This document shows, in pieces, positions 16,312 to 22,503 of a DNA stretch of 26,268 bases. Source of the stretch: a virus; IMG/VR virus record IMGVR_UViG_3300028920_000244, positions 1 through 26,268 of that record; one strand, 5' to 3'. The stretch's first letter is position 1, and each line of letters begins with the position of its first letter. A program made the position numbers and the translations under genes. The notes under the pieces are model-generated. The model was given only the letters and a program-made list of their open reading frames with translations, had not been told where the DNA came from and did no database searches.

Positions 16312-16770
16312 ATGGCCGAATTCACAATTGATTCTTTCCTGAGCGACAATGATGTTTGGAATGATCGGATTGACAAGTCCGAACTTCCTGTCATCGAGCC
16401 TGCTGACACCTGGGGCGAAACCGTGAATGATTTACTCAACCGGATCGTCTCAAACTTCAGAACTGGCACTGAGGGTAAGGAGGACAACCGTGCTTTGAAT
16501 GCGAACATCGAGTATGTCTTTGACGTAATCGAACAGGCGCATGATCAAGTCGGGATGTTCAACTTTCTGACAACTGTCGCCGGTAAGCTGAAATCGCTGA
16601 ACATGAAATCCTATGCAAAGCTGACCCCGAAATCCTACAAGGGTGTCAGCCTTGACTCTATTGTCGAATCGTTCGACATGGAAACAGGTTTCAGGTTCGC
16701 CAATCATCCTCTGTCTTTGTTCTCAGCACTTCAGACGAATAAAGACACGATCATCGAGGCCATCAAGTGA
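16312..16770 (+). CDS. Hypothetical protein (152 aa), first gene of unknown two-gene unit
   Basis: A 152-residue acidic protein starting MAEFTIDSFLSDNDVWNDRI. GGAGGG lies about seven bases before the ATG. The protein is helical in the middle (VNDLLNRIVSNFRT, IEYVFDVIEQAHDQVGMFN) and has a Lys-rich region (KLKSLNMKSYAKLTPKSYKG). No cysteine cluster, membrane segment or known motif is seen. It forms a two-gene unit with the next gene (GTGA overlap), follows the structured element 15859-16174 and ends at a strong terminator, so the unit is transcriptionally self-contained. Its promoter is not clear. Confidence 0.75.
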   Translation: MAEFTIDSFLSDNDVWNDRIDKSELPVIEPADTWGETVNDLLNRIVSNFRTGTEGKEDNRALNANIEYVFDVIEQAHDQVGMFNFLTTVAGKLKSLNMKSYAKLTPKSYKGVSLDSIVESFDMETGFRFANHPLSLFSALQTNKDTIIEAIK

Positions 16771-20416: not shown

Positions 20417-22009
20417 ATGGATCCGTACAAAGTCATTGATATCCCTATAAAGGATATCCACCCGGCAAAAGGTAACCGGGACTTCGACGGCATCGAAGTA
20501 AAAGATCTCGCCGAGTCAATTAAAACAGTGGGTCTGATCAATCCGATTCTGGTAGAAAAGAACGGTGATGGATACATCATTGTCGCAGGACACAGACGGT
20601 ACGCCGCCTGTAAGAAACTGAAATGGGATGCAATCCCCGCGTCAATCCTCGAGAATGAAACAGATACCATCCGTGTGGTCGACAACATTCAGAGATCAGA
20701 CATTCACCCGATGGACGAAGCCATTGAACTTGAGAACCTGCTCGAAAAACATGGTGATGTTGCGTCTGTAGCCGCGGCGGTAGGCAAGAGTAAATCGTAT
20801 GTTTACTCACGTCTGCGTCTGGCTAACCTTTGTGAAGGTGCCAGGGATTCATACAAAAACGGATCCTACAGTCACGGGGTCATGACAGAACTCGCTCGGC
20901 TGACTGAAGAACAGCAAAAGAAAATGCTCAATGAACTCAATCATATGTGGAACCCCACACAGAGCGACGTTCAGCGGAAGATTCAGGACATTTTCTTCAT
21001 GAGACTCAGCAACGCTCCCTTTGATATCAAGAATGCCGGGATTGTTCCGGAAGCAGGGAGCTGTATTGACTGCCCGAAAAGAGCCAAGAATAGTGATATG
21101 CTCTTTGAAGACCTGGTATCAACTGATACCTGTACTGATCATGTCTGCTGGAAGAACAAACGAATGAAGAATTACAACCAGCAGCTCCGGGCACTGAAAG
21201 ATTCAGGTGAAGAGTTCCATCTCCTCTCCGATGAGGACTGGAACGTGGCCATTGATAAAATCAAGGCATCGAAATGGACTGAATGTAAAAAGAAAGATGT
21301 CGATGCCAAGAAAGGGTTAATGGCAGCCGGCTATCACAAGGGAAAGATCATGTACTTTCAGGATCTACGGTCCGCAGCTGAGCAGAAGGCCCAGAGTACT
21401 GAAGGTATCAAGAAACAGCGGGAAGCAAACAGGACAACAGAAGACACGAAGTCAGAATACACCGAAGAAACCCGCTGGATCGATCGGGCTGTCAATGAAG
21501 AGCTGAAGACATTCTTCAGTGAACTGAAGGACAAATCGAGGATCGAAAAAGAAGTGATGCTCTCCATGATCACCAGATTCCAGTGGCAGGCCATCATCGA
21601 TTACTTCGAAATCAACTATGAACTTCCCGATGGTCAGTACTTCTCTAATGAAGATCTGCTTCCCATCTATGACTGGCTGAATGTGAACCTCACTCCCGAA
21701 CTGTTTAAGAAAGCAATTCTTGAATTGGGGGTGGAGGATTATATCTCAAGTTCTCATATCCACGGATATGGTGGATATACAGACGAGTGTGAGCTCGCTC
21801 GGGATATGGGTTTCGATCCTGCTGAGGCTGTCATCAGAGGAACTGAAAAAGGCAAGGCTGCTTATGCCGAGTATCAGAAAAAGAAAGAAGCTGATGATGC
21901 CGAAGAAAAAAAGAAACAGCAGAAAGAGAAGGAGCAGAAACATAACGAAGAAATGGCAAAAGGCACCGTCCTGGGTGAACCCCGGGAAGAAATAAATGGT
22001 GACGAATAG
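20417..22009 (+). CDS. ParB/Spo0J-like DNA-binding protein
   Basis: A 530-residue protein. Residues 3-90 form a ParB N-terminal domain (IPIKDIHPAKGNRDFDG; then AGHRRYAACKKL at 57-68, the CTP-binding GxRR-type box). IQRSDIHPMDEA (91-102) and a helix-turn-helix follow (about 114-134, VASVAAAVGKSKSYVYSRLR). A cysteine group (CIDC, CTDHVC) is typical of phage and plasmid versions. The C-terminus is a Lys/Glu-rich coiled coil (about 485-515). It could act in plasmid-like segregation, replication or gene regulation. There is no ParA in the window. AGGAGG lies six bases before the ATG. Confidence 0.85.
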   Translation: MDPYKVIDIPIKDIHPAKGNRDFDGIEVKDLAESIKTVGLINPILVEKNGDGYIIVAGHRRYAACKKLKWDAIPASILENETDTIRVVDNIQRSDIHPMDEAIELENLLEKHGDVASVAAAVGKSKSYVYSRLRLANLCEGARDSYKNGSYSHGVMTELARLTEEQQKKMLNELNHMWNPTQSDVQRKIQDIFFMRLSNAPFDIKNAGIVPEAGSCIDCPKRAKNSDMLFEDLVSTDTCTDHVCWKNKRMKNYNQQLRALKDSGEEFHLLSDEDWNVAIDKIKASKWTECKKKDVDAKKGLMAAGYHKGKIMYFQDLRSAAEQKAQSTEGIKKQREANRTTEDTKSEYTEETRWIDRAVNEELKTFFSELKDKSRIEKEVMLSMITRFQWQAIIDYFEINYELPDGQYFSNEDLLPIYDWLNVNLTPELFKKAILELGVEDYISSSHIHGYGGYTDECELARDMGFDPAEAVIRGTEKGKAAYAEYQKKKEADDAEEKKKQQKEKEQKHNEEMAKGTVLGEPREEINGDE

Positions 22010-22026
22010 AAAAAGTATGTTATAAT
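21999..22026 (+). promoter_or_regulatory. Promoter of the structured RNA gene
   Basis: GTGACG (21999-22004, four of six matches to the -35 consensus), a 16-base spacer and an extended -10 TGTTATAAT (hexamer 22021-22026) lie across the ParB-like stop codon. Transcription would start near 22032, immediately before the structured region and with no plausible reading frame ahead of it. Confidence 0.65.
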
Positions 22027-22030
22027 AAGA

Positions 22031-22240
22031 CACTTACCTCCTTGGTCCGGTTGGGTTTTCACTCCTTTCCCGGCCGGACCACATCCCGCTGCGGCCTGAC
22101 GGCAGGTACCTTTCATTGTGGAAAGGGGAAGCGGTTCGACTCCGTTCAGTGGGAATCCAAATACCTCCATAAGTTTGAGAGGGGGGTTTCCCATAGCCGG
22201 CGTATCAGGACTCCTGTAATACCGGCTCCCCCTCTCTTTT
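22031..22240 (+). ncRNA. Probable new ~210-nt structured RNA with tRNA-like domain
   Basis: Hairpin 1 pairs 22043-22055 with 22069-22081 (13 bp, two G-U). A tRNA-like cloverleaf follows. Its acceptor-like stem is TCCCGCTG (22084-22091) with CAGTGGGA (22147-22154). The D-like arm is CCTG-ACGG-CAGG (22095-22106). The anticodon-like arm is CCTTTC/GAAAGG (22109-22126, six-base loop). The T-arm (22130-22146) has a canonical seven-base TTCGACT loop. The D-loop is too short and no CCA follows directly, so it is not a normal tRNA. The long 3' hairpin (22177-22236) ends in TTTT. An own promoter and terminator support an independent transcript. No known family is recognised. Confidence 0.7.
22177..22240 (+). 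terminator. 3' hairpin/terminator of the structured RNA
   Basis: GAGAGGGGG (22177-22185) pairs with CCCCCTCTC (22228-22236), with G-U extension. Inside, GCCGG/CCGGC (22196-22200, 22222-22226) stacks after a nine-base bulge, and CAGG/CCTG forms a small top stem. TTTT (22237-22240) follows. The stem is far stronger than needed and the T-run is short, so it may also be a functional RNA domain. Confidence 0.65.
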
Positions 22241-22263
22241 AAATGCGAAACAGTTTCGCTTTT
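22241..22263. promoter_or_regulatory. Palindromic operator copy 2
   Basis: GCGAAAC-A-GTTTCGC is a perfect seven-base inverted repeat within a 23-bp block identical at 21 of 23 positions to 11436-11458. It sits 13 bases upstream of the -35 of the AbrB-like gene and directly after the RNA terminator. The position suits an activator or autoregulatory site. Confidence 0.65.
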
Positions 22264-22276
22264 CATATACAAATTA

Positions 22277-22305
22277 TTGACAGATTGCTTTGTTTCATAT
22301 ATAAT
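22277..22305 (+). promoter_or_regulatory. Near-consensus promoter of the recombination operon
   Basis: TTGACA (22277-22282), a 17-base spacer and TATAAT (22300-22305) match the sigma-70 consensus exactly. It drives the AbrB-like gene and probably the downstream erf-nuclease genes. Confidence 0.92.
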
Positions 22306-22323
22306 TTTGTACCAGGAGGCGGT

Positions 22324-22503
22324 ATGAAACAGAGCGTGTTCATCAAGAAACTCTACAAAATCGGCAATGGATATTCAGTCCATATTCCTATCGATTACGT
22401 AAAAGAGTTCGGTGCCGATTCCATTTATACCATGCGGATCGGTATCGACGGATCAATACATTTAAAACCAGAGGAGTTTACATGGACGAGAAAAAAGAAT
22501 TAA
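22324..22503 (+). CDS. AbrB/MazE-like DNA-binding protein (59 aa)
   Basis: A 59-residue protein with a swapped-hairpin (SpoVT/AbrB) pattern: FIKKLYKIGNGYSVHIPIDY, then VKEFGADSIYTMRIGIDGSI and HLKPEE. This is the typical x-K-I-G-N-x-x-x-x-x-I-P core of AbrB and MazE-like transcription factors, which bind palindromic DNA as dimers. I use ATG 22324 (AGGAGG five bases upstream) instead of an upstream in-frame ATG at 22243, which lies in the operator. With the shared operator nearby, it is the best candidate for its regulator. It overlaps the erf gene by 22 bases. Confidence 0.75.
   Translation: MKQSVFIKKLYKIGNGYSVHIPIDYVKEFGADSIYTMRIGIDGSIHLKPEEFTWTRKKN

Follow-up and report, generated by a model that had tools for sequence, protein, structure and literature searches.

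A predicted phage non-coding RNA gene with a tRNA-like core and exposed anti-Shine-Dalgarno-like segments

What kind of gene, if any, fills the 210 nt between a phage parB gene and the promoter of the next operon, a stretch that resembles a tRNA? The window (the whole 26,268-nt stretch of DNA analyzed) is a 26.3-kb viral record whose portal and capsid are those of an epsilon15/BPP-1-like podovirus. The collections hold no close relative of this phage (best capsid ≤38%), and no integrase is present among the window proteins scanned. The initial annotation proposed a stand-alone RNA gene at this site, and the layout bears it out: the unit starts with a promoter of its own, and the perfect promoter downstream is a separate one. 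In order, the unit contains an extended -10 promoter, a 13-bp hairpin, a compact cloverleaf, a G+C-rich 3' hairpin and TTTT, with a presumed start near 22031; the promoter element, both hairpins and the cloverleaf arms all lie where they had been placed (Table 1). Very probably the locus is a genuine gene for a non-coding RNA whose core derives from a tRNA or mimics one. The existence of the RNA is well supported; its mechanism is not.

Table 1. Positions of the features in the window and of related cloverleaves in other viral contigs
Feature	Position	Strand	Basis or remark
ParB-like protein gene (parB)	20417..22009	+	PF02195, PF17762, PHROGs; directly upstream of the RNA unit
Predicted promoter: weak -35 GTGACG (21999), 16-nt spacer, extended -10 TGTTATAAT (22018-22026)	21999..22026	+	Consensus match, 10/12 with TG
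ACCUCCUU, identical to 8 nt of the 16S rRNA 3' end	22036..22043	+	22037-22042 unpaired
5' hairpin, 13 bp, 13-nt loop UUUUCACUCCUUU	22043..22081	+	Fold; 12 pairs at probability about 1
CUCCUUUC in the 5'-hairpin loop, one base into the stem; equals 8 nt of the 16S 3' end	from 22062	+	
tRNA-like cloverleaf with 3-nt variable region	22084..22154	+	ARAGORN, fold, shuffles, covariance model R2
Acceptor-like stem, 8 bp	22084-22091/22147-22154	+	Fold, near-certain pairs
D-like arm GCCUG-ACGG-CAGGU, 5 bp, loop ACGG	22094..22107	+	Minimum-energy fold
Anticodon-like arm, 6 bp, 6-nt loop AUUGUG (or 5 bp, 8-nt loop)	22109..22126	+	Sequence, fold
T-arm AGCGG-UUCGACU-CCGUU, 5 bp	22130..22146	+	Sequence, fold
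ACCUCC, unpaired	22163..22168	+	
3' hairpin: 9-bp outer stem and inner GCCGG stem (22177-22236), then TTTT	22177..22240	+	Fold
Perfect consensus promoter TTGACA-17-TATAAT of the downstream operon	22277..22305	+	Consensus scan
Cloverleaf, 7-bp acceptor, D-arm GCUG-CCGGU-CAGC, T-arm	L156:10986-11079	+	No ARAGORN or Rfam call
tRNA-like elements sharing TGCGGTCAGGGT and GTTTTCAGCGGTTCGACTCCGTT	L157:2582-2665; L166:147-230; L162:842-933; L164:5997-6088	-; +; +; +	
127-nt tRNA-like element with GGGGGU/ACCCCC closing stem	L152:1181-1307	+	Fills the gap between two co-directional genes; also L154, L158
Very compact cloverleaf, 8-bp acceptor, 3-bp anticodon-like arm	L149:871-933	-	Strong hairpin directly after

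The 3' hairpin with its TTTT is likely an intrinsic terminator. The TTTT tail is short and weak for a terminator, and a scan for short-loop terminators does not detect the hairpin at 22177. An ORF runs across the unit (22042-22242), with a TTG start, 66 aa and no Shine-Dalgarno sequence. The downstream operon, a small protein gene followed by erf, is set apart from the RNA unit by its own promoter. The small protein (22324-22503) had been called AbrB, a name that finds no Pfam or PHROG support. An inverted repeat, GCTTTGTTTCATA/TATGAAACAGAGC, surrounds the -10 and the start codon of this operon (window 22287-22335), and GCGAAACAGTTTCGC lies upstream of the repeat at 22245-22259; it is possible that the repeat and GCGAAACAGTTTCGC are operator sites for a regulator of this operon.

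The 210-nt RNA has a folding energy of -88.6 kcal/mol, compared with -69.7 ± 4.6 kcal/mol for its shuffles (z -4.1, 0 of 200 shuffles as good). The minus strand folds almost equally well (-88.3 kcal/mol); the strand is therefore assigned from the promoter, the terminator and the T-loop, and not from the fold alone. Most pairs in the 5' hairpin, the cloverleaf and the 3' hairpin have probabilities above 0.85, with about 0.7 for the T-arm and about 0.5 for a long-range ACUUA/UAAGU closure. Two details of the cloverleaf held only in part. The four-base D-loop is found in the minimum-energy fold (ACGG), whereas ARAGORN draws a D-arm with a 3-bp stem, GCC/GGU, and an 8-nt loop, UGACGGCA, with a GG pair. 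A CCA is indeed missing directly next to the acceptor, but one occurs at 22157-22159, 1-2 nt off the discriminator position. A DNA-level origin of replication is a further possible reading of the locus, but it leaves the T-arm, the promoter and the terminator unexplained.

The tRNA-like domain itself is well above chance, in agreement with the initial annotation. ARAGORN calls a tRNA-??? at 22084-22155, without an assignable anticodon and given as tRNA-?(Gln|Thr). The same program makes no call in 100 shuffled windows and three calls in 600 further ones, and when the local 300 nt are shuffled 5000 times it again makes none. The exact cloverleaf geometry has a single match in the window and none in 21 Mb of shuffles. 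A covariance model, R2, was built from the window cloverleaf alone and run on 365 kb of viral loci that were fetched with a looser GTTCGANTC pattern and not chosen for the exact T-arm. Its best matches there are the positions of genuine tRNAs, with tRNA-Thr in L146 at 23.8 bits (E 0.0014), a tRNA-Val at 19.4 bits, and tRNA-Leu elsewhere. Over 1.1 Mb of related phage loci, R2 matches only the window element itself.

The Rfam families give a different picture. RF00005 has no match at its gathering score in the whole window, and none at E values up to 10 in 86 nt or in the record. At the curated cut-offs Rfam gives no match of any family, the tRNA, tRNA-Sec and tmRNA models included, and no tRNA family matches the element at relaxed thresholds. 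As a control, the Rfam tRNA model scores a phage tRNA-Glu at 59.7 bits and a phage tRNA without an assignable anticodon at 46 bits. Since these models are blind to the element with the control at 59.7 bits, it is not a standard decoding tRNA; and since R2 retrieves genuine tRNAs and RF00005 misses the element, it is tRNA-like but outside the tRNA family. The best, non-significant Rfam match is LhrC, at 20.2 bits (E 1.1) with a family cut-off of 110 bits. The cloverleaf does have a T-arm of the form UUCRANY, both by ARAGORN and in the folds, but it has no anticodon loop of 7 nt with U33, and no anticodon can be assigned; the loop is 6 (or 8) nt long. An ordinary tRNA, which would have overturned the RNA gene as first described, is therefore rejected: ARAGORN assigns no anticodon, RF00005 has no match, and there is no 7-nt anticodon loop.

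The geometry does resemble that of some unusual tRNAs, a point that the initial annotation missed together with the exposed anti-Shine-Dalgarno-like segments described below. Bacterial tRNA-Sec has an 8/5 acceptor branch, which the element shares with its 8-bp acceptor and 5-bp T-stem, as well as a 4-nt D-loop. It differs from tRNA-Sec in its D-stem of 5 rather than 6 bp, and a tRNA-Sec is rejected on the 3-nt variable region in place of a long arm, the missing UCA, and the missing Rfam tRNA-Sec match. The 6-bp anticodon stem, the 3-nt variable region and the small D-loop are features of tRNA-Pyl by its published definition, and are also found in mitochondrial tRNA-Ser(UCN) (PMC7609411). In both of these tRNAs the anticodon works and sits in a normal loop, in contrast to the 6-nt loop of the window element, and tRNA-Pyl is without the G18 G19 and T-psi-C motifs that the window element keeps. 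A tRNA-Pyl is also rejected, since there is no CUA (the loop is AUUGUG) and no G1:C72/G73; the first pair is U-A (or C-G), and position 73 is A.

It is conceivable, given these likenesses to tRNA-Sec (which extend to the 4-nt D-loop; PMC7609411), tRNA-Pyl and mitochondrial tRNA-Ser(UCN), that the element is a working but unusual tRNA, with a compact body and a 6-nt loop that would read UGU or UUG. This is improbable, as the element lacks a 7-nt anticodon loop, a CUA or UCA anticodon, a long variable arm and an adjacent CCA, and the standard code reads the window genes normally. Like the window RNA, a tmRNA has a tRNA-like acceptor and T-arm within a longer RNA, but the window RNA has no mRNA-like tag frame and its element has a D-stem. 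A tmRNA is rejected: ARAGORN finds none, no frame encodes a tag, and there is no Rfam match at cut-off (cyano_tmRNA reaches only 7.9 bits).

The acceptor stem, the T-loop and the elbow bases of the D-loop and T-loop are intact, and all four arms are fully paired. This state bears on two further explanations. The element may be the relic of a captured tRNA gene that has lost decoding and is drifting, with no role beyond perhaps terminating parB transcription. An anticodon loop of the wrong length, the missing RF00005 match and an ARAGORN call without an amino acid fit such a relic, as do the recurrence of unorthodox tRNA-like cloverleaves in other phage contigs and the lack of a homologue showing conservation. 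Drift, however, would usually break pairs, and the dedicated promoter and terminator are still present, so that a relic seems somewhat unlikely. The same intact acceptor, T-arm and D/T elbow, next to an altered anticodon arm, could instead belong to a tRNA mimic or decoy that would bind RNase P, the CCA-adding enzyme, EF-Tu or synthetases, or absorb tRNA-cutting defence nucleases. In its favor, phage tRNAs with changed anticodon loops have been proposed to evade host anticodon nucleases (PMC10264068). A decoy for such nucleases would be expected to retain a recognisable anticodon loop, and CCA is not directly next to the element; a decoy is thus a rather unlikely reading.

Alongside the layout, the fold and the tRNA-likeness, the computation reveals three non-overlapping sites in the RNA that are like the 16S rRNA tail, two of them 8 nt long, with nearly all bases unpaired. 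Shuffles reach three sites in 20 of 5000 cases and two 8-mers in 9 of 5000, in a test that is post hoc (chosen after seeing the sequence) and concerns a C-rich RNA. Elsewhere in the window, three such sites never fall within one 210-nt stretch. Duplex energies show that the segments are complementary to the Shine-Dalgarno sequences of many genes of the window phage. The longest match is CCUCCAUAAG at the ACCUCC site, where 10 nt are fully complementary to the ribosome-binding site of the gene at 16312; by our estimate a match of 10 bp is expected about once in ten such searches, and is within chance.

Listeria LhrC and the Staphylococcus Rsa RNAs are C-rich, with exposed UCC-rich loops complementary to Shine-Dalgarno sequences. 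The window RNA shares this feature of C-rich regulatory RNAs in its unpaired UCC-rich segments (by the same post hoc test), but LhrC and the Rsa RNAs are without a tRNA-like domain. The B. cereus tRNA-Other is a tRNA-like element inside a larger regulatory RNA (PMC3399842); like the window element it is non-translational and part of a longer RNA for which an action on mRNAs is proposed. Unlike the window element, it is chromosomal, next to an island, and has a Trp anticodon (PMC3399842). The passages of that paper used here do not describe an anti-Shine-Dalgarno hairpin or a private terminator for tRNA-Other; the window RNA has candidates for both.

By analogy with tRNA-Other and with the C-rich LhrC and Rsa RNAs, our tentative preference is for a phage non-coding riboregulator, in which the cloverleaf may serve as scaffold and processing handle and exposed CCUCC segments may pair with Shine-Dalgarno sequences. 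For its transcription, processing, targets and repression we infer the following course. Transcription would start at the unit's own extended -10 promoter, with a probable further contribution from parB read-through, and would yield an RNA of about 210 nt that ends at the 3' hairpin. Its core would be a compact tRNA-derived cloverleaf that has kept the acceptor stem and the D-loop/T-loop elbow and lost a decoding anticodon loop. The cloverleaf would act as a processing handle, cut by RNase P at about 22083/22084 and trimmed near 22155 by RNase Z or exonucleases. The exposed ACCUCCUU, CACUCCUUU and ACCUCC would be anti-Shine-Dalgarno segments that pair with phage or host ribosome-binding sites, and this pairing would dampen translation of phage or host mRNAs. 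If the RNA is made and works, the phage has re-used a tRNA body as scaffold for an anti-Shine-Dalgarno regulator.

Searches for homologues of the whole RNA find none in IMG/VR (pattern scans), in phage or plasmid records, or in 50 related viral records; hence there is no covariation and no proof of selection. An exact 20-mer has no match in IMG/VR, and DNA searches of phage and plasmid collections give nothing relevant. The protein searches, with ParB, Erf, terminase, a capsid alignment and the HNH protein in IMG/VR and with terminase and Erf in GTDB genomes, return distant relatives only (capsid ≤38%; Erf 45% over a short stretch, otherwise ≤38%), none of them carrying the RNA. Homologues had been anticipated upstream of other AbrB-erf loci, but none occurs in nine viral contigs that carry Erf or in one MAG contig; the intergenic DNA ahead of other erf genes is also free of cloverleaves. 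Several candidate matches are rejected. The 51 IMG/VR matches to an anti-Shine-Dalgarno-flanked T-arm pattern are chance or ordinary tRNAs, and a 26-nt direct repeat of the 3' half of the T-arm inside the hnh gene has a length expected by chance. Model R1 matches L024 at 22.5 bits, but the site is an intergenic hairpin that has a similar loop and no cloverleaf. This long hairpin (L024:8874-8961, plus strand), whose loop TTTTTTCTCCTTTC is like that of the window 5' hairpin, lies directly before a ribosome-binding site.

The cloverleaf type, as distinct from the whole RNA, has possible counterparts in other phages. An IMG/VR scan with the 17-nt T-arm, whose identity is thus the search criterion, gives 22 contigs. 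The hits are ordinary tRNAs, a tmRNA in L163, and several cloverleaves left without annotation by both ARAGORN and Rfam. The latter occur in unrelated phages (L149, L150, L152/L154/L158, L156/L169, L157/L166 and L162/L164) and have no match in phage GenBank records. Acceptor closure is better than chance in L149, L156 and L157 (p 0.006-0.025), marginal in L150 and L152, and absent in L162. A D-arm motif, UG(N)CGG(N)CA (TG(N)CGG(N)CA in DNA), is common to the window element, L156, L157 and L162; it was defined after seeing the sequences, though independently of the T-arm search pattern. L156 is the best R2 match, above all true tRNAs in the set, at 31.2 bits (E 4.5e-6), of which about 14 bits come from the selected T-arm. 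The L156/L169 cloverleaf resembles the window element in its D-arm motif CUG-NCGG-CAG and T-arm. It differs in its long anticodon-like arm (in L156 a 7-bp stem with a loop of about 30 nt), in lying directly behind an HNH gene, and in having no visible private promoter or terminator. None of the other cloverleaves has the 5' hairpin or the private terminator of the window unit.

The elements of L152, L156, L157, L162, L164 and L169 each fit tightly between co-directional genes. This lends some appeal to a cis-acting processing element that would stand at the parB operon's 3' end as a bacterial version of mitochondrial t-elements, with a cut by RNase P/Z that would separate mRNAs. The window cloverleaf does lie 75 nt after parB, in the same direction and with no other terminator between. 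A pure processing site would not need its own promoter and terminator, and the downstream genes have their own perfect promoter, which makes this reading very unlikely for the window unit. It is possible, though on the unlikely side, that phages carry an unannotated class of compact tRNA-derived cloverleaves with an acceptor, a minimal elbow (motif UG-(N)CGG(N)-CA) and free-form, non-decoding anticodon arms, acting as processing or scaffold modules in operons and, here, as the core of an anti-Shine-Dalgarno riboregulator. Such non-decoding elements are missed by annotation, as here, where Rfam gives nothing and ARAGORN only tRNA-???. If the class is real, the short D-arm motif with the T-arm is a handle for finding more of these RNAs, and it would bear on the old question of what purpose odd, apparently useless phage tRNA-like genes have.

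The surroundings of these elements vary. The L156 element begins 4 nt after the HNH-like gene, and L169 has the same element with a different upstream flank. The L157 element ends 1-2 nt ahead of the start codon of a putative small terminase gene, and the L162 element lies about 20 nt before a gene slightly upstream of the terminase genes.
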